Below, in pieces: positions 5,189 to 24,744 of a stretch of DNA of 24,744 bases. Numbering within the stretch: position 1 is the stretch's first letter; each line of letters starts with the position of its first letter. The notes below the pieces were generated by a model, which had not been told where the DNA came from, did not search any database, and saw only the letters and a program-made list of their open reading frames with translations. Both the position numbers and the translations under genes were made by a program. Source of the stretch: Candidatus Baldrarchaeum yapensis (GTDB lineage Archaea; Asgardarchaeota; Baldrarchaeia; Baldrarchaeales; Baldrarchaeaceae); contig JAEOSH010000029.1 in NCBI GenBank assembly GCA_016840465.1, positions 1 to 24,744 on the forward strand, given 5' to 3'.

Positions 5189-6541
5189 TCAACTTATCTC
5201 CGAGGAGGATTCCTCATCCCCGCCTTTTGCCTTCTGATCCTCCGGCTTTAGGACCGATAGAAGATTCAGGAGCATATCCACCATCGGTCCGACCTTTCCA
5301 TCACACTCCTTCACAAATTTCGTGATGGTATCCCTCAGGGGCTCATCACTCCTCCCCATAACCTCTGAGACTATTTTTAGCAGTAAGGTCGTGGCGGTGT
5401 ACTGATCTAAGGGTTTAAGGTCGATGATTCTTGCATTCGCTCCAAAAATGTAGGGAAGCTCCGAGGACAATTTCTCGAACGTCGATGGGGTGGTCGTTAT
5501 AACGAGCGACGTGAGGGGGACCCGCTTCCTGATAATACTTTCGATGAATTGGAGGATCTCTCTCACCTCTCCTTCCGACGATACCGGAAGTTCAAGGAAC
5601 TCGTCAATCATCAAAACCAAGCGCCTTATGGCTCTCGCCCTCACAAGTCGCCCCATTAGCGCCCCTAACCCCTTTACCACACCCTCAACGCCGCTGACAG
5701 ATCCGTAGCTTTCCATGAACTTCTTGACGAGATCCTTTATCCTGTCGTGTTTTGACATTTCACCCAATATCCGATAGTACATGTCGGATAAACTCTGACA
5801 AGTGGACGGTGAAATGTAAACGGCCACAACATCTGGTATCTCTCTCAAGATCTTCCAATACGCGTAGAATAGAAGATAAGACTTCCCAGAACCGTAAGGT
5901 CCCCTGATAATTAGTATGCGCGGTTCCCTCCCGCCCGGCGCACCTTTCACAAGAGCGAGCAGTTCCCGTAAGTGTTCACCAAAGAGGGCATCAAAAAATC
6001 CACCCACTTTGCCCCACTTCTCCATCAAAACTCTGGTAAATATGCTTAGTAAGTGAGCGTGGAAAAGTGCATAAGCCTCAGACTCCGGTAGCGATCTGCC
6101 AATCTTCCTCATACCTTCCTCAAAGAGAATACCCTCACGCCTGCGGTTTTTGACGAATTTCAAAGGGAGCATCTTGCTAAAGGCAGCGACGGGGATTATG
6201 CGAACTCTGTAGGGTAGCACCTTGAGGCCGGGAATCTCCTCCCCCATTTCTTGGGAGACCCTGATGGCCTCCTGAAGCCCGCGCTCTGTCAGTTTCCAGA
6301 GATACTGCCGTCCCTCGATGAATCTCTCAACCCATCCCATCTCCACGAACTTATTCAATCTCCTGAGCACTCTTCTAAGATCAGCGGTACCTCTCTCGCG
6401 TGATGCAGTACTCATGCCGAGTGCTGTGAGAATCCTCGTAGTGGGGACAAGTTTCGGCTCCGGGGTCGAAAAAGATAGTAGAGTCTCGAGTATTCTGCAA
6501 GATAGCATATCTAATCTAATTTTATTATTAGTATTGGCCAT
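5189..6541 (-). CDS. HTH-AAA ATPase, divergent from the MoxR/VWA operon
   Basis: A 450-residue protein. The N-terminus (about 10-95) is a winged-helix-like region (ILETLLSFSTPEPKLVPTTR, LRRVLRRLNKFVEMGWVERF, then LWKLTERG). A basic linker follows, then a P-loop ATPase: Walker A GPYGSGKS at about 214-221, Walker B RLVLMIDEF at about 307-315, and a sensor-1-like VITTTPST at about 347-353. The acidic Ser-rich tail is unstructured. ATG 6541 is preferred because GGTGG lies 5 nt upstream; GTG 6577 has no SD. The layout resembles archaeal DNA-associated ATPases such as the Orc/Cdc6-like and KAP/STAND groups, but I cannot assign one. Divergence from the MoxR/VWA operon suggests a regulator or an extra motor of that system. 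Confidence 0.7.
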   Translation of the reverse strand: MANTNNKIRLDMLSCRILETLLSFSTPEPKLVPTTRILTALGMSTASRERGTADLRRVLRRLNKFVEMGWVERFIEGRQYLWKLTERGLQEAIRVSQEMGEEIPGLKVLPYRVRIIPVAAFSKMLPLKFVKNRRREGILFEEGMRKIGRSLPESEAYALFHAHLLSIFTRVLMEKWGKVGGFFDALFGEHLRELLALVKGAPGGREPRILIIRGPYGSGKSYLLFYAYWKILREIPDVVAVYISPSTCQSLSDMYYRILGEMSKHDRIKDLVKKFMESYGSVSGVEGVVKGLGALMGRLVRARAIRRLVLMIDEFLELPVSSEGEVREILQFIESIIRKRVPLTSLVITTTPSTFEKLSSELPYIFGANARIIDLKPLDQYTATTLLLKIVSEVMGRSDEPLRDTITKFVKECDGKVGPMVDMLLNLLSVLKPEDQKAKGGDEESSSEIS

Positions 6542-6787
6542 ACACGCCACCGATCCGCGCTCTGCTCGAAACCCCACGTTGGCAATTGGTGTTGTCTCTC
6601 GTCACCCATCAAATCTATAGCATTTATACCGTTTTTAAGTATTGTTCCACAGTAATATAAGCTTTGAGAGGATAGAAAGTCGTTATAAAAACGTCATAAG
6701 TGGGACGGAAAGCATAATGGAAGTATCGGAACTCATGGAACAATATTTATAAATGATATTGGACATATGGATTAGTGGGGTGATCGC
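6542..6787. promoter_or_regulatory. Divergent promoter region with 10-bp inverted repeat
   Basis: For the rightward operon, ATATTTATAAATG (6743-6755) is a good TATA box and GGGGTGATCGC leads into ATG 6788. For the leftward gene, GGTATAAATG on the minus strand (6621-6630) fits a start near 6600. TATTGTTCCA (6640-6649) recurs inverted as TGGAACAATA (6736-6745). The second copy touches the rightward TATA box and the first lies close behind the leftward one. This is what a shared operator pair would look like. Boxes are seen; regulation is inferred. Confidence 0.45.
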
Positions 6788-7996
6788 ATGAGCGCAAGGT
6801 CAAGGAGGGGGGTTCACCCAAGTTTCCCGGTCTCGGAAGATTACAGGAGATCGGCAAATATAACGGTCGTCAGAGTGAATCATAGGGCCCTGGAGCGGTT
6901 GCTTATCCACAATTACAATTGCGGGAAAAACGCCATTTTCATATGGGGAGGAATAGGCATAGGAAAGAGCACGACGGTCAGGAGAACCTCACAAAAGCTT
7001 GCATCCCTCACGAGAAGGGAATTCATCGACTGGAACCGCGCCAACGGTTGTCTCAAGAAGAAGGTCATTGAGGACCCAGGTGAGTACTTTGTCTTCATCG
7101 ACATCAGGCTCTCGCAGTACGACCCCAGCGACCTCAAGGGGTTACCGGATCTGAGATCCGAGTTCGTGACGTGGCGCCCCCCGATGTGGTTCTACATTCT
7201 CACGTTGCCCCAAAGTGCCGGCATCCTTTTCCTCGACGAACTCAATCACGCCCCTCCCATGATACAGTCGGCGGCATTCCAACTGATACTGGACAGATGC
7301 CTCGGTGAATATAGCCTCAGCGACGGGGTAATGGTCGTTGCCGCGGGTAACAGACCTGAGGACAGCACCGCCGTCTTCAAGATGTCCAAGGCTCTCGAAA
7401 ACAGGTTTCTGCACGTGGAACTCAAGGCTCCTACCTTTGAGGAGTGGGAGAAGTGGGCCCTGGAGAACGACATCGACCCGAGGATAATAGCGTTCCTGAG
7501 ACTCAAGCCGGATCTTCTTTACGTGGAAAACGGATCAGGCCCCGCATACCCAACTCCCAGGGCGTGGGAGTTCGCAAGCAACTTAATAAAGGGCGTCGAG
7601 GATCCCGACGATGTTGAGATGTATGTGGCCTCGGCGGTGGGCTTTGGTGCCGCCCGTGAGTTCCGCGAGTTTCTGAGGTTTTCCCAAATAAGGATCGAGG
7701 AGATACTGGAGAATCCGGAGATTCTGAACGAATCTAGATACAGGCGAATGGACGTGAGGGCGGTAATAGCGTACAGCCTCGGGTCGTACTTCAAGATGCA
7801 CAAGACTAGGGATGTCCTGAGGAAGATCATCAGGGTTCTCCGCTACTTCAACCCCGAGTTCCGGATGGTTGTGATAAAGCACCTCAAAATTGTAGATGAG
7901 GGGATGCTCGAGGAGGAGGCGATGGGAAACCCCGAACTTGTGCGAATGCTCGAACTTCTCAATGAGGCGATGGAGGGGGATGGGTATGAAGGTTGA
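6788..7996 (+). CDS. MoxR-type AAA+ ATPase
   Basis: A 402-residue AAA+ protein. Walker A is GGIGIGKS (54-61), Walker B is ILFLDELNHA (146-155), the sensor-1 loop is VVAAGNRPED, and the arginine finger is probably in ALENRFLHVEL (Arg about 206). The order and the Asn in Walker B (DELN) fit the MoxR/AAA_5 group, which works with VWA-domain proteins to remodel or load cofactors onto target proteins. About 190 residues of helical C-terminal region follow the core. It heads a five-gene unit in which every junction overlaps: its stop lies 11 nt inside the VWA gene. It is almost certainly the motor of that complex; the client is unknown. Confidence 0.85.
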   Translation: MSARSRRGVHPSFPVSEDYRRSANITVVRVNHRALERLLIHNYNCGKNAIFIWGGIGIGKSTTVRRTSQKLASLTRREFIDWNRANGCLKKKVIEDPGEYFVFIDIRLSQYDPSDLKGLPDLRSEFVTWRPPMWFYILTLPQSAGILFLDELNHAPPMIQSAAFQLILDRCLGEYSLSDGVMVVAAGNRPEDSTAVFKMSKALENRFLHVELKAPTFEEWEKWALENDIDPRIIAFLRLKPDLLYVENGSGPAYPTPRAWEFASNLIKGVEDPDDVEMYVASAVGFGAAREFREFLRFSQIRIEEILENPEILNESRYRRMDVRAVIAYSLGSYFKMHKTRDVLRKIIRVLRYFNPEFRMVVIKHLKIVDEGMLEEEAMGNPELVRMLELLNEAMEGDGYEG

Positions 7997-9269
7997 GGAG
8001 TTTGAGAGGAGGATCCTGCGGGCAAAGCTTAGGCTGATACGCGACCACCCCTTCTTCGGCTTTCTGCTGACGGTCATCGAAATAAAACCGGACAGTTCCG
8101 TCAGCAGGGTGCTAATACATCCCGACTTCGTGGTCAGAATGAACCCCAAATGGGCGATGAGTCTCAGTGACGAGGAATTGGAGTTTGTCCTCTGTCACGT
8201 CACCCTGCACTACGTGTTGGAGCACACCTCAAGAATGGGGCTGAGGGATCCACGTGTCTGGCATCTCGCATGTGATATTGCAGCCAACAACATCCTAGAG
8301 TTCAACGGCATAATGGTGCCTTCTTGGTCCCCCTACGTTCCAGAGTTCGGGGACAAAAGCGCCGAGGAAATTTATTACCTATTGTACAGCAAGAATCAGC
8401 AGATGTGCCTAGGATCTCCTGACCGCCAGTGGGGTGAGGGTTGCGGAGGATCGATGGGGACGGGATACAAGGGGTTTGGCGGAGATTTCGGTGGAAACCT
8501 CCACGGTATGTGTGAGCCATTCGATGAATGGGCGGAGAAAAGTTTTGGGGAGGCTGACGGTTGCAGGAAAGGCGATTCAAATGCGCATCAGAGGGGTATG
8601 GATCTGAAAGGGTTGCTGGTTAAGGCCTACAACTTCGCAAAAGCTCATGGGAGGACGCCACTAGGGATAAGCGAAATCGTTGACGTGGGAGAGAAGAGGG
8701 TGCTCGACTGGAGGGCTATGCTCGAAAGGCTCATCTACAAACTGATCCCGTGTGACTACGCGTGGCACCCTCCGTCAAAGAAGTCCTACTTCTTGGGCGT
8801 ATATCTTCCCGGCGTGAGGAAAGAGATCTTGGACATCGTGGTCGCGCTCGACACCAGCGGATCGATAAGCAACAGCGAATACGGCTACTTCCTGAGGGAA
8901 GTGATCGAAATTTTCCGAAACTTCGAAAATGTGAACATTACGGCGATCATGTGCGATGCGAAAGTGCAATGCGTTGTGGAGAACCTAACTAGGCCGGAAG
9001 ATGTACTCGAACACCTCAGGACAAGGATAGGTTATGGCGGAACCGACTTCCGCCCGGTCTTCGAGTGGGTCGAGAGGAACAAGCCGAATTGCCGTCTCCT
9101 GATATACTTCACCGACGGGATGGGGGACTACCCTCGCCGAGAACCCGGCTACCCGGTCATCTGGGTGATCGTGGGTGATGAGTATAGGCACTACGGGCGC
9201 CGCTACCACCCGCCCTTTGGGCACGTAATCAATGTGGATCGTCGAGAGCTCTGGGAGGTGGTTTCATGA
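7986..9269 (+). CDS. DUF2201-type VWA protein with altered HExxH
   Basis: 427 residues. The N-terminal domain (about 1-150) matches the DUF2201 putative metallopeptidase: LSDEELEFVLCHVTLHYVLEH, then RDPRVWHLACDIAANNIL and SAEEIYYLL. The usual HExxH reads HVTLH here (71-75), so the catalytic Glu is replaced by Val. A Gly-rich linker leads to a C-terminal VWA domain with a complete MIDAS: ALDTSGSIS (Asp289, Ser291, Ser293), GGTDF (about 351-355) and FTDG (Asp377). It is the usual partner of MoxR ATPases. The start is ATG 7986 with GGAGG at 7972-7976, rather than an earlier in-frame ATG that would overlap the MoxR gene by 100 nt. Confidence 0.85.
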   Translation: MKVEEFERRILRAKLRLIRDHPFFGFLLTVIEIKPDSSVSRVLIHPDFVVRMNPKWAMSLSDEELEFVLCHVTLHYVLEHTSRMGLRDPRVWHLACDIAANNILEFNGIMVPSWSPYVPEFGDKSAEEIYYLLYSKNQQMCLGSPDRQWGEGCGGSMGTGYKGFGGDFGGNLHGMCEPFDEWAEKSFGEADGCRKGDSNAHQRGMDLKGLLVKAYNFAKAHGRTPLGISEIVDVGEKRVLDWRAMLERLIYKLIPCDYAWHPPSKKSYFLGVYLPGVRKEILDIVVALDTSGSISNSEYGYFLREVIEIFRNFENVNITAIMCDAKVQCVVENLTRPEDVLEHLRTRIGYGGTDFRPVFEWVERNKPNCRLLIYFTDGMGDYPRREPGYPVIWVIVGDEYRHYGRRYHPPFGHVINVDRRELWEVVS

Positions 9270-9631
9270 AGACGGATTTCGCCTCCTCACTTGCCAAGAA
9301 ATTGTGCGAACTCATGTACCAGCATTCCCCCGGCACCGTAAACTACGAGTATATTTGCTCGATAGAGAGAGGCGCGCGCACGCTACTAAGAATATTAAGG
9401 GGTCTTGTGGAAATCGTAAGACCCGAGTTAAGGTCAAAGGATGTAGAGAAGTCCATAGAGGAGATCGTGAGGAGATTTTTGAGGGAGGTTGAGGGGGGAG
9501 GAGATCCCGTCGAATATGTAGATTTCGTGGTCACGGTGTGCCACGAGGTATTCGAGAAGTTTTTCCTCGATGTTCTAAAAACTGAGCGGTCGAATGAAAA
9601 TCCAGAGGGGAGGGGGAACTCCAATGTCTGA
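9266..9631 (+). CDS. Small helical protein of the MoxR/VWA operon
   Basis: 121 residues, almost all predicted helix, no membrane segment. Two amphipathic helices carry alternating acidic/basic faces (ERGARTLLRILRGLVEIVRPE and VEKSIEEIVRRFLREVEG), followed by VEYVDFVVTVCHEVFEKFFLDVL and a short polar tail. It starts at ATG 9266 in an ATGA overlap with the VWA stop, so translation is coupled. I recognise no family. Its position directly after the VWA gene suggests an adaptor or small subunit of the same complex. Confidence 0.7.
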   Translation: MKTDFASSLAKKLCELMYQHSPGTVNYEYICSIERGARTLLRILRGLVEIVRPELRSKDVEKSIEEIVRRFLREVEGGGDPVEYVDFVVTVCHEVFEKFFLDVLKTERSNENPEGRGNSNV

Positions 9632-10595
9632 CTCTTACCCGGGCATTCCGTTACCGGGCATTCTCGAAGAAAGCCTGAGGTTTGGCGTGTCCTATTCCCC
9701 GGATATCTCTAAGAGGGCAGAAGATATCGTCAAAAGGTGCGAGGTGGAGGTTTGGAACATAGAGAACCCCAGATTGAGGGCCCTAACGGCCTCGCGACTG
9801 CTGATTTTCTACGGTGCATCTTATACTTCGATAGCACAGAGGATCCTGGAGGATGAGGAGATACTAGCCGATGACATTGCAGTGAGGGCGTTCGCCTCCG
9901 AGATATACCTCACTTCCCTAATTTCCGGGTCGCGCCTCATGAGGGGCGTGCTTTACAAACTCGCCAGGAGGTTAAAGCTGAGGGGGTTTAGAGAAATTTC
10001 CAAGCGTGTTACGGTGACCGGGACTCTAAGCATCCTAGATGTCATGTGCGCCAACACCAACCTGCTGAGTTACTTCTTGAGTTGCTACGCTCTTCCTTCC
10101 CATGAAAGGGACTTCCGGTTTGTGTACCGGTGGTCGAATTACATGACGGCCCAGAGGGTGACGTACAAGGAGGATGATCCGCACCAGAAGCTACTAAAGG
10201 AGAGGGCGGCTGCCCTCCTCCGGGGGATTATTCCGATAGCTGTTGGCAACCTCTATTATACCAAGCACTCGAGAAGATTCAGTGAGTCATGGAGATTGTT
10301 GCTGGAGGAGTTTGCAATATTGAGAGAAGCAACCCACACGATGATCTCGCTGGTTAGGAGAATAAATGACTCGATCTTCGTAGTAGAGGTGCTATTGACT
10401 CTTGCAGAGGCGCTTGCCAGTAGCGGCAGGGTCGTTCCACTGATATCGTCTCTGAGAGAAGTTGCGAGGTTTCTAAAAGGCGGGGACGTTCCGGCGCTCG
10501 TAACTATAGCTTTTGATATGTATCTCGAGGGTTACAGGCAGGAGCGGAGATACCTGAAGTGGACGTTTCTGGAAAAGGTGGGTGAGCTGTCATGA
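9624..10595 (+). CDS. Unrecognised all-helical protein of the MoxR/VWA operon
   Basis: 323 residues, soluble and largely helical, with Arg/Lys-rich helices such as SKRAEDIVKRCEVEVWNIE and YKLARRLKLRGFREISKR, and long hydrophobic helices that look buried rather than membrane-spanning. The pattern recalls an alpha-solenoid, but no clean repeat is visible by eye. The N-terminus has a Pro-Gly doublet (PGIPLPGILEES). ATG 9624 lies 7 nt downstream of GGGGAGGGGG (9607-9616) and overlaps the previous gene by 8 nt. No catalytic motif is seen. A scaffold or client role in the MoxR/VWA complex is inferred from operon structure only. Confidence 0.7.
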   Translation: MSDSYPGIPLPGILEESLRFGVSYSPDISKRAEDIVKRCEVEVWNIENPRLRALTASRLLIFYGASYTSIAQRILEDEEILADDIAVRAFASEIYLTSLISGSRLMRGVLYKLARRLKLRGFREISKRVTVTGTLSILDVMCANTNLLSYFLSCYALPSHERDFRFVYRWSNYMTAQRVTYKEDDPHQKLLKERAAALLRGIIPIAVGNLYYTKHSRRFSESWRLLLEEFAILREATHTMISLVRRINDSIFVVEVLLTLAEALASSGRVVPLISSLREVARFLKGGDVPALVTIAFDMYLEGYRQERRYLKWTFLEKVGELS

Positions 10596-11398
10596 GGGCG
10601 GTGACGCTTTTCAAGGATCTGGTGCTGAAGGTTGCAAAGATATTAGAACTGAGGGAGGAGATTTTGAAAGAAATCGGCACGCTTATCAAGATTCTTCGCG
10701 GCAGAGTGGAGCAACTGATGAGAAAAATTGAAGAACTGCAGGCTGAGGAGCGGGAACTTCATTTTCTGTGGGAGATCCGAAGAGAGTTGGAGGATCTCAA
10801 TAGCTACATAGGGTATAGGTATCACAACCCCGGATCCCTAGCACGGATGATTCGTAAAGAGTTAAGAAAGTACATCAGTTATCTGAAGGAGCGGGATCAT
10901 ATCTGCAAGAGGATACATGGGGCCATGAAGCGGGCGGAGGAGCGGGCATCCGAAAAGGACCTGAAGGCACCTGATCATGTCATGGAAAATGTGCGTAAGA
11001 TTGCGGAGGAGTTGAGTCAAGAATTGGCGAAAATTGTGATATGCGGCGCGAAAAGCCCCCATAAGCCATCTGTTGTAATGAGGATTACGGCCATCAACGT
11101 CTTAATTGCCTGCGCGGCTGTGCTAATAGGGAGGTTATCTGTCGCTTATCCGGCGTCGTACACGATATACGTGAAGGATATCTTTGAACTGATCGAAAAT
11201 TCCGCCATAATACGCGATAGACTGAAGCGGTACTACATTCACGATTTTGTGATGATGTCGCCAGTGGATCTAGAAATTTTGCTTGCATTGTTGAATGGCA
11301 TCGCGGACGAGGTGCTGAGGTCCTGCAGGCTGACATATCACATAATCATGGAGATAAAACGGGAGATAAAGCCGATCTTCCTCCTCAAGTCACTATAA
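10592..11398 (+). CDS. Coiled-coil protein closing the MoxR/VWA operon
   Basis: 268 residues. The first 65 or so form a strong coiled coil (EILKEIGTLIKILRGRVEQL, then MRKIEELQAEERELHFLWEI), followed by a basic helical region and a more hydrophobic stretch at about 165-190 (MRITAINVLIACAAVLIGRL) that could be a buried helix or, less likely, a membrane helix. The C-terminal third is helical (VDLEILLALLNGIADEVLRS). ATG 10592 overlaps the previous stop as ATGA. No known family is recognised. A coiled-coil subunit at the end of an AAA-VWA operon could provide oligomerisation or target tethering. Confidence 0.7.
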   Translation: MRAVTLFKDLVLKVAKILELREEILKEIGTLIKILRGRVEQLMRKIEELQAEERELHFLWEIRRELEDLNSYIGYRYHNPGSLARMIRKELRKYISYLKERDHICKRIHGAMKRAEERASEKDLKAPDHVMENVRKIAEELSQELAKIVICGAKSPHKPSVVMRITAINVLIACAAVLIGRLSVAYPASYTIYVKDIFELIENSAIIRDRLKRYYIHDFVMMSPVDLEILLALLNGIADEVLRSCRLTYHIIMEIKREIKPIFLLKSL

Positions 11399-11529: not shown

Positions 11530-11814
11530 ATGGCCACGTACACTGCCATTGTGGTCCGCCAAGAGACAAAGAGGCTACTGGAGCGGGAAAAGGGAGATAA
11601 GAGTTGGGACGACTTCCTTCTCGAACTTCTTCGGATCGCGAAGGAGCGAGAAGTGAAGGAGGCAATAAAGAGAATACAAAACAGACTAAGGGTTGTGGAA
11701 AGGGCAATCATGGAATCCGAGGAGAGCATGAGGAGGGAGTTCAAATTAAGGGGTGATTCTGGACACGAATTACGTGATACATTTGTCGAAGAGCGGGAGG
11801 CTCGAGGAGGTTAG
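11530..11814 (+). CDS. VapB-type antitoxin, partner toxin broken
   Basis: 94 residues. The N-terminus MATYTAIVVRQETKRLLERE followed by KGDKSWDDFLLELLRIAKER resembles archaeal VapB antitoxins of the UPF0330/DUF217 type (a beta strand, then a helix with KSxxDxLLxLL). A long basic/acidic helix follows that would wrap the toxin. ATG 11530 has GGTGA 3 nt upstream; longer versions starting at 11425 have no SD. The last 62 nt overlap the VapC frame, far more than the 4-14 nt seen at the other modules here, so its C-terminus may also have been shifted. Since the toxin is wrecked, this is probably an orphan antitoxin. Confidence 0.65.
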   Translation: MATYTAIVVRQETKRLLEREKGDKSWDDFLLELLRIAKEREVKEAIKRIQNRLRVVERAIMESEESMRREFKLRGDSGHELRDTFVEEREARGG

Positions 11815-12248: not shown

Positions 12249-12353
12249 TTATGATGACTTTAAACATCGATTGACAACCACATCTGGCTTTTGACCGTGC
12301 AAAGTTTTTGGGATCATCCGGCAAATTCAATTTAAGGGTGGAGTGTGATCGAG

Positions 12354-14033
12354 ATGTGTGCGCAGAAGTTGGCCCCTCTTCTCACAAAGGTCAAGGTGAG
12401 CAGGTTCTTCTATAAGGCATGCGGTTACACAGATGAGGACCTTAAGCGTCCGATCATAGGAATAGTAAACAGCTTTAACGAGGCCTGCCCGGGTCATATT
12501 CACCTTAAGATGCTTGCGGACGCCGTAAAGGCAGGCGTGTATGCGGCGGGTGGGACTCCGATAGAAATCAACGTCATCGGACCCTGTGCTGCTTATTCGA
12601 GGAATTACAGATACGACCTGCCAACGCGAGACACAATAGCCAACAGCATGGAGATACAACTGATGCAGTCCGTATGCGACGGCATTGTATGTATGTGCAC
12701 ATGCGATAAAATAGTTCCGGGGATGTGGCTCGGCGCCGCGAGGCTCGATCTTCCCACCATATTCGTAACCGGAGGGCCATCCCTGCCCGGAGAGTTCAAG
12801 GGGGAGGAGACGTGCTTCCCGCTTGATGCGCTGGTCCCCATAATCTCAGATTACGCGAAGGGTCTCATTTCCGAGGAGGAGTTGTGGAGAGAAATAGGAG
12901 TTGCCGAAGAAACATGGATAAGGACCTACGGCGCGTGTCCCGAAATGACTACCGCGAACACCGTGCAGATGCTGACAGAGGCGATGGGTCTCGCGTTCCC
13001 ATATTCGACAACAACTCCTGCTCCATACTCGCTCAAGTTGAGACTTGCGAGAAGGAGCGGAATGTGCATCGTGGAAGCCGCGAGAAAACGCCTTAGCTTC
13101 AGGAAAATAGTAACGGAGAAGTCTTTGGAAAATGCCTTGAGAGTTCTATGCGCTGTCGGTGGCGGGACAAATGGGGCATTGCACGTATTCGCTCTCGCGT
13201 ACGAACTTGGCCTCTCCGATAAAATAAACCCGGACAGGCTGGATGAGATCAGCAGGTCGACCCCGTTTCTCTCCGCAATTAGGCCAAGTGGGCCCTTTAC
13301 TGTGGTCGACTTCCATGAGGCGGGTGGGGTTCCGGGCGTCATGAGGGAGTTGGGCGACCTGATCCACAGGGATGCCTTGACCGTAACCGGAGAGACGATA
13401 GGTGCGATCATCGAGAGCGCGTCCATAAAGAGAAGAGATGTAATAAGATCGCGGTCGGATCCCGTGTATCCCGAGGGGGCATTTGCGGTACTCAAGGGCA
13501 ACATCGCGCCGAGAGGGGCGATATGCAGGTACACCGCCGTGAAAAAGGAACTTCTCCAATTTGAGGGAGAGGCGAACGTATGCAACAGCTTGGAGGAGGC
13601 GGTAATAAAGGTCGTTACGGGAAAGGTCGAGGCCGGACAGGTGCTGGTGGTTAGATATGAAGGCCCTCGGGGAGGCCCCGGGATGACAGAGATAGTCATA
13701 GTGCTATTCCTCCTGAGAATGCTTGGTATAGAAAATATAGCGGTGGTTACGGACGGAAGGTACAGCGGCACGGCGGAAAAAGTTCTTTATATCGGACATG
13801 TATGTCCGGAGGCCGCCGTCGGGGGACCAATAGCGGTCGTGGAAGACGGAGACGTGATCGAAATAGACGTACCCGCGCGTAAGATAAACGTTAAACTGCC
13901 GGATAAGGAGATAGAGCGCAGGTTGAAGGAGTGGACAAGACCGAAACCGAGGGTGAGGAGGGGAGTACTTGCAATATGGGCGCAACTTGCAGAGCAGGCG
14001 GATGTGGGCGCAGTACTTCGTTCAAAGATCTAG
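12354..14033 (+). CDS. IlvD/Edd-family dehydratase, divergent
   Basis: About 559 residues, the usual family length. Enzymes of this family dehydrate dihydroxy acids or sugar acids using an Fe-S cluster. The three cluster Cys motifs are present: NSFNEACPGHIHL (Cys45), CTCDKIVPGM (Cys117) and GACPEMTTANT (Cys195). DGRYSG with IGHVCPEA near the C-terminus supplies the catalytic Ser region. The stretch that in dihydroxy-acid dehydratase supplies a metal Asp (SDGISMGHEGM) is instead GPCAAYSRNYRYDLP, and the third Cys motif has PE where GG is usual. The gene may therefore act on a sugar acid or other substrate. ATG 12354 has GGTGGAG 10 nt upstream and fits the TATA spacing; GTG 12345 is too close to that SD. 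Confidence 0.85.
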   Translation: MCAQKLAPLLTKVKVSRFFYKACGYTDEDLKRPIIGIVNSFNEACPGHIHLKMLADAVKAGVYAAGGTPIEINVIGPCAAYSRNYRYDLPTRDTIANSMEIQLMQSVCDGIVCMCTCDKIVPGMWLGAARLDLPTIFVTGGPSLPGEFKGEETCFPLDALVPIISDYAKGLISEEELWREIGVAEETWIRTYGACPEMTTANTVQMLTEAMGLAFPYSTTTPAPYSLKLRLARRSGMCIVEAARKRLSFRKIVTEKSLENALRVLCAVGGGTNGALHVFALAYELGLSDKINPDRLDEISRSTPFLSAIRPSGPFTVVDFHEAGGVPGVMRELGDLIHRDALTVTGETIGAIIESASIKRRDVIRSRSDPVYPEGAFAVLKGNIAPRGAICRYTAVKKELLQFEGEANVCNSLEEAVIKVVTGKVEAGQVLVVRYEGPRGGPGMTEIVIVLFLLRMLGIENIAVVTDGRYSGTAEKVLYIGHVCPEAAVGGPIAVVEDGDVIEIDVPARKINVKLPDKEIERRLKEWTRPKPRVRRGVLAIWAQLAEQADVGAVLRSKI

Positions 14034-14066: not shown

Positions 14067-15461
14067 TTAAAAGCCTAAGTACATTTTTGTTTTTCTCTGA
14101 ACGTCCCTCAGTTCCTTTGCCGTCAGGAGTTTTATTCCATGTTCTCTTACTTCTTGGATTTCATCTTCCCTCAGCTCGTATCCGAAGTACGACACTAACA
14201 CTCTTTCTCTAACCCTTTTGCCGTAGTCTCTTGCGAACCTCTCCGCGTTTCTGATGAGTTGCTCGACCTTGTCGAATTTCGCACTGCCCCAGAAGTGCAC
14301 CTCAAATACGTATGCCTCATCGTTCAGTAATCCCACGGCGTCTATCTCATAACCACTTCCCCTCAGATCGAAAACCTCTCTAAACGGAGGTATCACCAGC
14401 TTCTGCCCCAACGCGTCCCTCAATTCTATCTCCGTGGTTATGGCTCTCAGCATCTCCCGAAACAACGCCTCAAACCCCAAACTCGAAATGTAAATTGCTT
14501 TCCTTGAGATCTTCCCCAAGCTTGGAATCTCCTGATTCAATAACCACGCCTGGAACACCTTATCACATATAAAGTACTCGGAGTGCTTCTTCCCCTTCTT
14601 TATCTTCACTAATAAGCCATTCTCCTCCAATCTCCTCAGATAGGGGCTCGGATCTTTATAAAGCCTATTCTCTATCTCGTAGAAGCGGTTACTCCCCCTC
14701 GCCACCAGATGGAGAATGTACCTCTCCTCCGCCTGCAGGCTGTCCATCAGCGCGGAGAAGTACACGTCAAGGTCGCCCCTAGGATTTATAAGTCTGAATA
14801 GGGCCTCACGCGGGGAAAGTCCACTCGAAATTACCTGCTCAATTATCTTCTTCGCGTAAAAGGGATTCCCGGCGGCAATCTCCGCAACCTCCCGCGCCCT
14901 CTCTTCGTCCAGGCTGTGCCTGAGTGCCAACTCGAAAATAGCCTCAAAACTCATAGGCCCAATGAATAACAGCGTAAACTCGCGAAATAGAGGCGCAAAG
15001 TACTTCATGGTCGATCTTCTCACGAAGCCGACCGCCGACGAGGAGAGTATCACACTTTCCCCTCCACGCCCCCTCCTAGCCTGTATCTGAGACCTAACGT
15101 ATCTGGCAACCTCCTCCACTTTCCCGAATGGACGATACCTCGCCAGCGTCTGAAGCAGAGACGAAAACTCGTCTATCATGATGATGTGGTCATCCATTTC
15201 GAATAGCGCCCTTATGGCGTACCGAGAATCGGCAACCGGTCTTTCCCCCATGAGAACGAAAACGTCCTCCGGCGATAGTACCTCATAACCATCGATAAGA
15301 AGAACTCTTTTCCCCTCACTTACTAGTATATCTCGAACTCTCTCTAATAACGTTGTTTTCCCGATGCCCCTTAGCCCATAAATGAGCAAATTCGATTTCA
15401 TCTTCACGTGATTGAGGATTACCTTGATCTCCTCCTCCCTATCCACAAAGTGATCACTCAT
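14067..15461 (-). CDS. Archaeal ATPase with DUF234-like C-terminal domain
   Basis: 464 residues. The N-terminal archaeal ATPase domain has FVDREEEIKVIL, Walker A GLRGIGKTT (29-37) and Walker B HIIMIDEFSS (92-101). A winged-helix region follows at about 240-300 (YEIENRLYKDPSPYLRRLEE, NGLLVKI). The C-terminal domain (about 345-455) has YEIDAVGLLN... and YVFEVHFW, the core of a PD-(D/E)XK-like fold, but with His389 where the catalytic Lys is expected. These genes are abundant in thermophilic archaea and are often found in mobile or accessory regions; function unknown. The start ATG 15461 lies downstream of a TATA box and a 21-bp inverted repeat, so it is probably repressible. It is convergent with the dehydratase. 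Confidence 0.85.
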   Translation of the reverse strand: MSDHFVDREEEIKVILNHVKMKSNLLIYGLRGIGKTTLLERVRDILVSEGKRVLLIDGYEVLSPEDVFVLMGERPVADSRYAIRALFEMDDHIIMIDEFSSLLQTLARYRPFGKVEEVARYVRSQIQARRGRGGESVILSSSAVGFVRRSTMKYFAPLFREFTLLFIGPMSFEAIFELALRHSLDEERAREVAEIAAGNPFYAKKIIEQVISSGLSPREALFRLINPRGDLDVYFSALMDSLQAEERYILHLVARGSNRFYEIENRLYKDPSPYLRRLEENGLLVKIKKGKKHSEYFICDKVFQAWLLNQEIPSLGKISRKAIYISSLGFEALFREMLRAITTEIELRDALGQKLVIPPFREVFDLRGSGYEIDAVGLLNDEAYVFEVHFWGSAKFDKVEQLIRNAERFARDYGKRVRERVLVSYFGYELREDEIQEVREHGIKLLTAKELRDVQRKTKMYLGF

Positions 15462-22059: not shown

Positions 22060-22305
22060 ATGGAAGAGTACGTCGTGAGCGTCACGAATCGGTACATGAT
22101 AACAATACCCGCCAGGCTGAGGAGAAAGTACGGGATAGAGAAGGGGGCAAAACTCCTGATAAGGGATGTGGGGAACGGAATACTGATAGTTCCACCAAAG
22201 TCGTTTGAGGAAATGTTCGGCATCGATAAAAATCATAAAGAGGTGCTGCTGGAAGCAATAAAGGAGTTGGACCGCGAACACCGGGAGGAGGCTACCCACG
22301 ATTGA
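22060..22305 (+). CDS. vapB: AbrB/SpoVT-type antitoxin VapB
   Basis: 81 residues. The swapped-hairpin DNA-binding motif is clear at the N-terminus: VVSVTNRYMITIPARLRRKY, then IEKGAKLLIRDVGNGILIVPP. The C-terminal helix (about 50-81, acidic) would bind and neutralise the toxin. ATG 22060 has GGTGA 6 nt upstream; GTG 22051 is less likely. The stop overlaps the toxin's TTG start as TTGA. It would repress its own promoter through the palindrome immediately upstream. Confidence 0.85.
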   Translation: MEEYVVSVTNRYMITIPARLRRKYGIEKGAKLLIRDVGNGILIVPPKSFEEMFGIDKNHKEVLLEAIKELDREHREEATHD

Positions 22306-22700
22306 AGAAGTACGTCATCGACGCGGGAGTCCTCACGCTCTACTTTGTGGGCGACGAAAGAGTAAAGCCGTACATAAGTGAGGTGTTTTCAGGGTCTGCA
22401 ATCGGGATGATATGCCAGGTCAACCTCGCAGAATACTACTATAAAACCTGCCAGAAGCTGGGAAAGGATGTCGCGAAGACCCGCTACCACTGGATACTCT
22501 CCTCACCCATCAGGATTGTTCCGACAAATGACAACCTGACAATCACAGCCGGAAACCTGAAATGCAAATACCGAGGATTACTGTCACTGGCCGACTGCTA
22601 CGCTCTTGCCCTGGCAATCCTGAACAATGCAACCCTCCTGACAACCGACAGCGGCCTCAAGGAGACTCAAGAGGTGCCCGTTAAGTACTTTAAGGTATGA
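22302..22700 (+). CDS. vapC: PIN-domain toxin VapC
   Basis: 132 residues, standard VapC length. Active-site acids are in order: YVIDAGVLTLYF (Asp7), QVNLAEYYY (Glu44), LLSLADCYALALAI (Asp97) and LLTTDSGLKE (Asp115). It is a Mg-dependent endoribonuclease toxin that cuts structured RNA when free of VapB. It starts at TTG 22302 in a TTGA overlap with the antitoxin stop, so the toxin depends on antitoxin translation and a weak initiator. Confidence 0.85.
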   Translation: MKKYVIDAGVLTLYFVGDERVKPYISEVFSGSAIGMICQVNLAEYYYKTCQKLGKDVAKTRYHWILSSPIRIVPTNDNLTITAGNLKCKYRGLLSLADCYALALAILNNATLLTTDSGLKETQEVPVKYFKV

Positions 22701-23128: not shown

Positions 23129-23368
23129 ATGAAGGTTGTTCAGACGAGGCTTAACAGCATCGAGTACGAAATGTTGCGGAAGTACGCCGAAGCCAAGGGG
23201 CTCACGATCACCGAGGCGCTCAGGGAGATCATCAGAAAAGCGGTAATGGAAGAAGAAATCGACAAAAATGATCCCATATTTGTGGAGGGACCGGCCGCTA
23301 AAAGGACAGGGCAGGTCGATAGAACCTCGGAGGAACACGATAAGGTGCTCTACGGTGATAGGGATTGA
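23129..23368 (+). CDS. vapB: Ribbon-helix-helix antitoxin VapB
   Basis: 79 residues. MKVVQTRLNSIEYEMLRKYA then AEAKGLTITEALREIIRKAV is a ribbon-helix-helix (CopG-like) fold: one strand, then two helices. The acidic tail with YGDRD at the end is the toxin-binding part. ATG 23129 has GGTGA 5 nt upstream (23119-23123). Longer in-frame starts up to 22931 have no SD and read low-quality sequence. The stop overlaps the toxin TTG as TTGA. Confidence 0.8.
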   Translation: MKVVQTRLNSIEYEMLRKYAEAKGLTITEALREIIRKAVMEEEIDKNDPIFVEGPAAKRTGQVDRTSEEHDKVLYGDRD

Positions 23369-23772
23369 TATTCGTAGACACCACCGCATTCTACGCCCTC
23401 GAAGTCGAAGATGATGTCAACCACGAAAGGGCCCAGTCCTTCCTTTTGAACGAAATACGCACCGGGAAGTACGGAATCATGATAACATCCGACTACGTGG
23501 TCGACGAGACGCTGACACTATTAAGGATGAGACGGGGAGTACAGATGGCCCTGAAATTCTATGATAAGATAAGCAGGAGCAGAAGCATCCGAATAGTATG
23601 GATAAACGAGGAAATATTCAATGAGGCGCTGGAAATCTTCAAGAAAAACGGAAAACTGAAGTGGAGCTTCACCGACTGTACAAGCTTCGCCATAATGAAG
23701 GCCCTAAACATACGCTTCGCATTCACGTTCGACAAGAACTTCAAACAGGCCGGATTCATTAAACTCCCATAG
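23365..23772 (+). CDS. vapC: PIN-domain toxin VapC
   Basis: 135 residues. MIFVDTTAFYALEVEDD has the first Asp (Asp5), ITSDYVVDETLTLLRMRRG the second acidic pair, WSFTDCTSFAIMKA the third (Asp about 107), and FAFTFDKNF the fourth. Typical VapC ribonuclease layout. It starts at TTG 23365, four bases before the antitoxin gene's end, the same arrangement as the module at 22060-22700. The two toxins are only distantly similar, so they are separate acquisitions rather than a recent duplication. Confidence 0.85.
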   Translation: MIFVDTTAFYALEVEDDVNHERAQSFLLNEIRTGKYGIMITSDYVVDETLTLLRMRRGVQMALKFYDKISRSRSIRIVWINEEIFNEALEIFKKNGKLKWSFTDCTSFAIMKALNIRFAFTFDKNFKQAGFIKLP

Positions 23773-23930: not shown

Positions 23931-24725
23931 CTACTCTTCCTCCTTCACTATCTTGTGGGCAATAAGGGCGATCTTGTTCTGCTTGCAGAACTCCCTCGCG
24001 AGGTCCGTCGCCTCCGCCGCCACTATGACCCTGTCCGCCTTTATCCCCAGTAATTCCTCTATACGGCGCGTCTTCGCCCAGAACCACTCCGCATCATCTC
24101 TCTCCACGTAAGCCTTAACCTCTATGAAGACCTTACGCTCGTCCGTTATGAAAACGTCCACCTCCAAAACTCCCCCCTTCGGAACAACCTTCCCGTCCGG
24201 GTCCGTAACCTTCAGCCCCCGAATCTCCTTTATCTCGACCCCGAACCTCCGCAGCGCGTCCTCGTAGGTCTCGAGGATGAGCCTCTGGAGACCCCGACCG
24301 AGTCTACGCCCCACCGCACCCAGCTCTATCCTTATGTTCCGAACCTCCACCGCAAGCTCGTTCACCCTCCGCGTGAGGTCCGCCAGCCTCTCTTCAATAC
24401 TCGCGAACCTCTCATCGACCCTCGCAAATCGCTCATCGATTTTCACAAATCGTTCATTGTACTCTCTCCTCATTTCCGCGATGCTTTCCTCAATCCTTGC
24501 AAAACGCTCATCTATCTTCGCGAAACGTTCGTTATACTCCCGGCGCATCTCGGCGATACTCTCTTCAATACTCGCGAACCTCTCATCGATTTTTGCGAAC
24601 CTCTCGTTGTACTCCCGGCGGATTTCCTCAAACCTCTCATTAAATTCCCTCCGGAGTTCCTCGAACCTCTGGTTCATTTCCCTCCTCAGTTCCTCGAACC
24701 TGCGGTTGTACTCCTCCCTTATCTC
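23931..24725 (-). CDS. Coiled-coil protein with PD-(D/E)XK nuclease-like domain (5' end missing)
   Basis: The C-terminal 264 or so residues of a larger protein. The first part is an extremely regular coiled coil: three 11-residue units like RRFEELRREMN, then 25-residue units beginning NERFAKIDERFASIEESIAE, then a last degenerate unit. The C-terminal domain (about 155-264) has VLEVDVFITDERKVFIEVKAYV, with the Asp and E-x-K of a PD-(D/E)XK nuclease, preceded by GLQRLILETYEDALRRFG. This matches the DUF3782-like proteins common in thermophilic archaea. The real start lies beyond the contig. Any apparent N-terminus MYKRQ is adapter-derived and must be ignored. Confidence 0.8.
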   Translation of the reverse strand, partial: EIREEYNRRFEELRREMNQRFEELRREFNERFEEIRREYNERFAKIDERFASIEESIAEMRREYNERFAKIDERFARIEESIAEMRREYNERFVKIDERFARVDERFASIEERLADLTRRVNELAVEVRNIRIELGAVGRRLGRGLQRLILETYEDALRRFGVEIKEIRGLKVTDPDGKVVPKGGVLEVDVFITDERKVFIEVKAYVERDDAEWFWAKTRRIEELLGIKADRVIVAAEATDLAREFCKQNKIALIAHKIVKEEE

Positions 24726-24744
24726 CTGTCTCTTATACACATCT
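24726..24744. other. Nextera/Tn5 mosaic-end adapter (assembly artefact)
   Basis: The last 19 bases are CTGTCTCTTATACACATCT, exactly the transposase mosaic-end sequence used in Nextera libraries. It is not genomic. Translated on the minus strand it produces the bogus MYKRQ N-terminus seen in many database proteins. Confidence 0.97.

Follow-up and report, generated by a model that had tools for sequence, protein, structure and literature searches.

The window, the whole 24,744-nt stretch of DNA analysed here, carries an operon in which a MoxR-type AAA+ ATPase and a VWA protein, a motor–adaptor pair that is real and known, are followed by three genuinely orphan partners, U1, U2 and U3 (Table 1). 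We give an even chance to the reading in which the five genes specify both a dedicated MoxR/VWA remodelling chaperone and the complex that this chaperone acts on; in this reading it is a NorQ/NorD-like remodeller for a lineage-specific complex, probably with an accessory or defence function. New here are an HVTLH motif alongside an intact MIDAS in the VWA protein, an insert within the MoxR domain of four Asgard MoxRs, and three cousin MoxR–VWA–X operons, two of them beside type I-A cas genes. The genome that holds the window measures 2.27 Mb in 100 contigs. A search of 29 genomes found EAP30 (ESCRT-II family) in 25, the source genome among them, and from this marker we infer an Asgard assignment.

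Direct reading of the open reading frames and junctions bears out the gene layout given in the preliminary description, five overlapping genes and a divergent ATPase: along MoxR–VWA–U1–U2–U3 the overlaps measure 11, 4, 8 and 4 nt. The VWA/U1 and U2/U3 junctions are 4-nt ATGA overlaps, and at the 8-nt U1/U2 junction a purine-rich stretch precedes the U2 ATG. We place the VWA start at ATG 7986, which gives the 11-nt overlap with MoxR; a longer ORF from 7896 is unlikely. TATA-like stretches were seen by eye at ~6745–6752 on the MoxR side and ~6621–6629 on the ATPase side. When codon usage was compared with that of the own genome, the annotated frame came out on top of the six frames for each of the six genes, which argues that U1–U3 are real coding frames. 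Overlapping junctions are ordinary in co-transcribed operons and occur elsewhere in the window too (3029/3042 and 23365/23368); the overlaps thus indicate an operon and nothing beyond it.

Table 1. Features of the operon region in the window, and cousin cassettes in other Asgard genomes
Feature	Coordinates	Strand	Description
Divergent ATPase	5189..6577	-	462 aa; wHTH-like N-terminal part + AAA_22/NACHT-like P-loop ATPase; orphan
Intergenic region, common to ATPase and MoxR	6578..6787	.	210 bp; TATA-like stretch each side
MoxR-type AAA+ ATPase	6788..7996	+	402 aa; AAA_5; phrog_1297
VWA adaptor	7986..9269	+	427 aa; DUF2201_N + DUF2201; phrog_1314
U1	9266..9631	+	121 aa; acidic, pI 5.5; no family
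U2	9624..10595	+	323 aa; basic, pI 9.2; helical in low-confidence model; no relatives found
U3	10592..11398	+	268 aa; basic, pI 9.3; helical; N-terminal long helix/coiled coil; no relatives found
MoxR–VWA–306/309-aa cassette	L236 3676-7050 (G007:C4); L048 9397-12839 (G044:C22)		adjoins type I-A cas genes
MoxR–VWA, then two overlapping paralogous genes	L047 1679-5889 (G057:C4)		292 + 281 aa; BLASTP E 5e-9

The identities first proposed for the motor and the adaptor are upheld by Pfam, which finds an AAA_5 domain in MoxR and both DUF2201_N and DUF2201 in the VWA protein (83.4 and 80.4 bits, with cut-offs of 23.2 and 26.4). Both proteins also give near full-length profile matches in PHROG, MoxR to phrog_1297 (E 2.3e-77) and the VWA protein to phrog_1314 (E 6.6e-77). 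The label of the latter family, "HNH endonuclease", looks wrong and was set aside: Pfam gives the window member DUF2201 metallopeptidase/VWA domains and no HNH. With its Walker A (GIGIGKS) and Walker B (LFLDE) motifs intact, MoxR is apparently a competent AAA+ ring ATPase. The VWA protein retains an intact MIDAS motif (DTSGS, residues 289–293), and its metallopeptidase motif reads HVTLH (residues 71–75) in place of HExxH, with the catalytic Glu lost. Across the family, HExxH is retained in only 28 of ~70 aligned members; it is not a universal feature, and loss of the Glu is recurrent. In the window protein, the metallopeptidase domain is probably degenerate and non-proteolytic. The best solved-structure relatives of the MoxR subfamily profile are midasin AAA modules. 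Those modules function together with a VWA/MIDAS domain, and their pairing of a motor with a MIDAS is comparable.

In the window MoxR an insert of ~28 residues follows the Walker A helix, ahead of the next strand. The distance from GKS to Asp is 55 residues in this protein and 55, 47 and 47 in the MoxRs of the Asgard genomes G057, G044 and G007; most sequences sampled (36 of 40 cellular, 34 of 35 viral) have a distance of 27. Within this sample, the insert is common only to these four. In a tree computed without the insert columns, from which four wrong-ORF extra Asgard rows of the insert alignment had been excluded, the four insert-bearing MoxRs lie on one side of a branch whose weak support (42/66) makes the grouping suggestive only. 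A quick tree computed before, insert included, had parted the window protein from two of the others, and the origin of the window MoxR is not resolved by either tree.

The pair itself is widely distributed. By tblastn, 124 plasmid and 796 phage records contain a relative of MoxR and 83 plasmid records one of the VWA protein; none of these relatives reaches 60% identity. Using an automatic gene caller, we scored loci for a VWA gene no more than two genes away from MoxR. Such a gene was present in 52 of 86 cellular and plasmid loci, mostly bacterial and most of them drawn from the MoxR search, and in 54 of 78 viral loci; both counts are lower bounds, since frames are misassigned by the caller in GC-rich contigs, among them L078 and L079, which do contain a VWA gene. 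MoxR–VWA machines are widespread, and few of their clients are known. In the window, the adjacent MoxR ATPase and VWA genes mark the pair as one of the DUF2201 type. A pair of MoxR and a metallopeptidase-fused vWA protein has already been described in jumbo phages (PMC7824862), and this description, the phage and PHROG families and the wide occurrence make the pair an already known one. The group 2.2 jumbo-phage pair (PMC7824862) and PHROG 1297/1314 have the same DUF2201_N plus VWA architecture and MoxR partner, whereas the window VWA protein lacks the HExxH Glu and the window MoxR has the additional insert; relative to the jumbo-phage pair, the window also adds three overlapping orphan genes, in an archaeal chromosome.

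For U1–U3, comparison with Pfam, NCBIfam, PADLOC and PHROG gave no credible family match. Credible relatives were found neither for U2 in 59 phylum genomes nor for U3 in 227; close-relative scans of viral contigs for both, and of genome contigs and plasmids for U2, returned nothing, and neither protein had a relative among solved structures. A single weak phylum match to U3 was rejected as it crosses six stop codons, as were weak U3 matches to LytB/IspH, LmuB and similar proteins, which fall far under the cut-offs and fit coiled-coil composition. Models built from single sequences, without alignments, are all-helical for U2 and U3, with mean pLDDT of 43 and 46, respectively; both are below 50 and too poor for fold comparison. 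Their sole moderately confident part is a long helix at residues 1–40 of U3, consistent with the coiled coil claimed earlier for this protein. Of the preliminary picture of three all-helical proteins of unknown family, the lack of a family thus stands for all three, and helicity is seen for U2 and U3 in low-confidence models only. The searches run, in genomes for U2 and U3 and in the family libraries for all three, showed neither a wide occurrence on their own nor an unrelated family. The roles of client, adaptor and scaffold suggested for them are not assignable, there being no detectable relative for any. U1–U3 are tied to the MoxR–VWA pair by operon structure alone, and a conserved linkage cannot be shown with no relatives in the data searched.

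The cousin cassettes set this arrangement in context. In G044 and G007, MoxR–VWA is followed directly by a co-oriented, abutting gene of 306/309 aa; the two third genes are 42% identical to each other and match no family. The type I-A cas operon of G007 comprises csaX, cas3'', cas3', cas5a, cas7/csa2 and csa5, with cas1 and cas4 upstream. Neither the insert-bearing MoxR nor the third gene was detected in the two other, incomplete, genomes of the G044/G007 genus. The cousin VWA proteins show weak likeness to the window protein (35–43 bits), the MoxR insert being common to both. Like the window, the G007 and G044 cassettes are Asgard loci with an insert-bearing MoxR, a DUF2201 VWA protein and a co-oriented abutting third gene; unlike it, they keep HExxH in the VWA protein, have type I-A cas neighbours and lack U1–U3. 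Judged from these gene neighbourhoods, a pair plus a partner is a recurring arrangement. The partners in G044, G007 and G057 differ and none resembles U1–U3 in sequence, so the partner of the pair appears exchangeable. The occurrence is sporadic, the partners are orphans and cousins are linked to CRISPR, which together make an accessory, defence-type role likelier than housekeeping.

Any defence link of the operon would be by analogy, and the window showed neither a CRISPR array nor a cas gene. MoxR-vWA ternary conflict systems carry as third component VMAP, iSTAND, an FtsH pair or a beta-propeller (PMC7159879). These systems resemble the window in having a MoxR–VWA pair with extra operon components (PMC7159879), but the window VWA protein carries DUF2201_N, and VMAP, iSTAND, FtsH and beta-propeller had no Pfam match in U1–U3 or VWA and none in PADLOC. 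Membership of the operon in these systems is accordingly not supported. The curated anti-phage defence models of PADLOC gave no convincing match for the operon.

In NorQ/NorD and CbbQ/CbbO, a MoxR hexamer works with a single VWA protein; the client is bound by the MIDAS of this protein, through which ATP-driven force is passed on (PMC9976466, PMC13036017, PMC4660213). A NorQ/NorD-type remodeller is marked by a VWA finger in the pore of the MoxR ring and by client binding that depends on the MIDAS. Both resemble the window in combining a MoxR ring with a MIDAS-bearing VWA adaptor, whereas the N-terminal domain of their VWA proteins differs from that of the window protein and their clients are known. 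If the mechanism may be carried over, the window MoxR hexamer would bind one VWA protein, the MIDAS would grip an acidic residue on the client, and ATP hydrolysis would pull or twist the client into another conformation. Gene order suggests that the client may be a complex of the small, acidic U1 with the basic, helical U2 and U3, and that the presumably dead protease domain of the VWA protein could act as a docking module.

Four other readings deserve weighing. We regard it as somewhat unlikely that the pair serves an enzyme encoded elsewhere, as a general or metal-insertion chaperone of the kind of NorQ/NorD, CoxD/CoxE and CbbQ/CbbO, with U1–U3 as lineage-specific accessory subunits or transcript passengers. 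Many bacterial loci with the pair do have unrelated neighbours (e.g. Synechocystis pSYSA), and U1–U3 have no conserved linkage, but all junctions from MoxR to U3 overlap, pointing to tight co-expression, and no metalloenzyme gene was recognised beside the operon. A broader proposal is unlikely in our estimate, namely that Asgard archaea possess modular defence machines built from an insert-bearing MoxR, a protease or pseudo-protease VWA protein and exchangeable third parts, these being the 309-aa protein with type I-A CRISPR-Cas and the U1–U3 complex here. Very unlikely, finally, is an origin from a virus, with the operon as a module for virion or tail assembly that resides, or has been domesticated, in the chromosome and is of the kind that Acidianus two-tailed virus reportedly has. 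The flanks are of chromosomal type, with a GalT-like ORF and, by eye, Xaa-Pro-peptidase-like and dihydroxy-acid-dehydratase-like ORFs; composition and codon use are like those of neighbouring genes; no capsid, terminase or integrase family was found among those tested; no close viral relatives were found; and the window MoxR sits in the trees on a long isolated branch outside any viral clade. These observations stand against the matches of both proteins to phage families (E ~1e-77), the presence of the pair on many viral contigs and the virion-assembly role proposed for the jumbo-phage MoxR–VWA pair (PMC7824862).

The fourth reading concerns the divergent HTH-AAA ATPase, which the preliminary description had joined to the operon as the second ATPase of one machine. 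Such a six-gene, two-ATPase system, with the ATPase as regulator or second motor, is decidedly unlikely: despite the adjacency, the common intergenic region and an ATPase that is likewise orphan, no such gene was detected beside the G007, G044 and G057 cassettes or the bacterial and viral MoxR–VWA loci examined, and the full-length protein has no relative in the 227 phylum genomes searched. Another archaeal STAND/ATPase_2-type gene lies near the operon (14067–15461, minus strand), hence such genes are not special to it. The divergent ATPase may possibly act as a regulator of the common promoter region.

Other genes of the window are recorded here in their own right. Just downstream of U3, 11530–11814 holds a VapB-antitoxin-like gene (PF02697, just under the cut-off). 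From 11753 onward it overlaps with a PIN-like reading (VILDTNYVIH...) that runs into stops and was recognised by eye, with no Pfam match; the two are possibly a decayed VapBC pair. The minus-strand gene at 23931–24743 contains 33- and 75-nt repeats; its coiled-coil product has a PD-(D/E)XK nuclease domain (PF07788), and PIN-domain genes lie nearby at 22302–22700 and 23365–23772. The dehydratase-like gene at 12345–14033 has a second, similar copy at L241 (G000:C83:14380-15849) with three in-frame stops, a possible pseudogene. An order search that included this flanking gene yielded one distant copy only (43% identity).

Returning to the proposed dedicated remodeller and its complex, the recurrent loss of the protease Glu suggests that the metallopeptidase domain of these VWA proteins is often a binding module. 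With cousins lying next to CRISPR genes, one may ask whether a Cascade-type complex is the target of an ATP-driven remodeller. Asgard operons in which overlapping genes encode the motor, the adaptor and a putative client would provide defined complexes to reconstitute.
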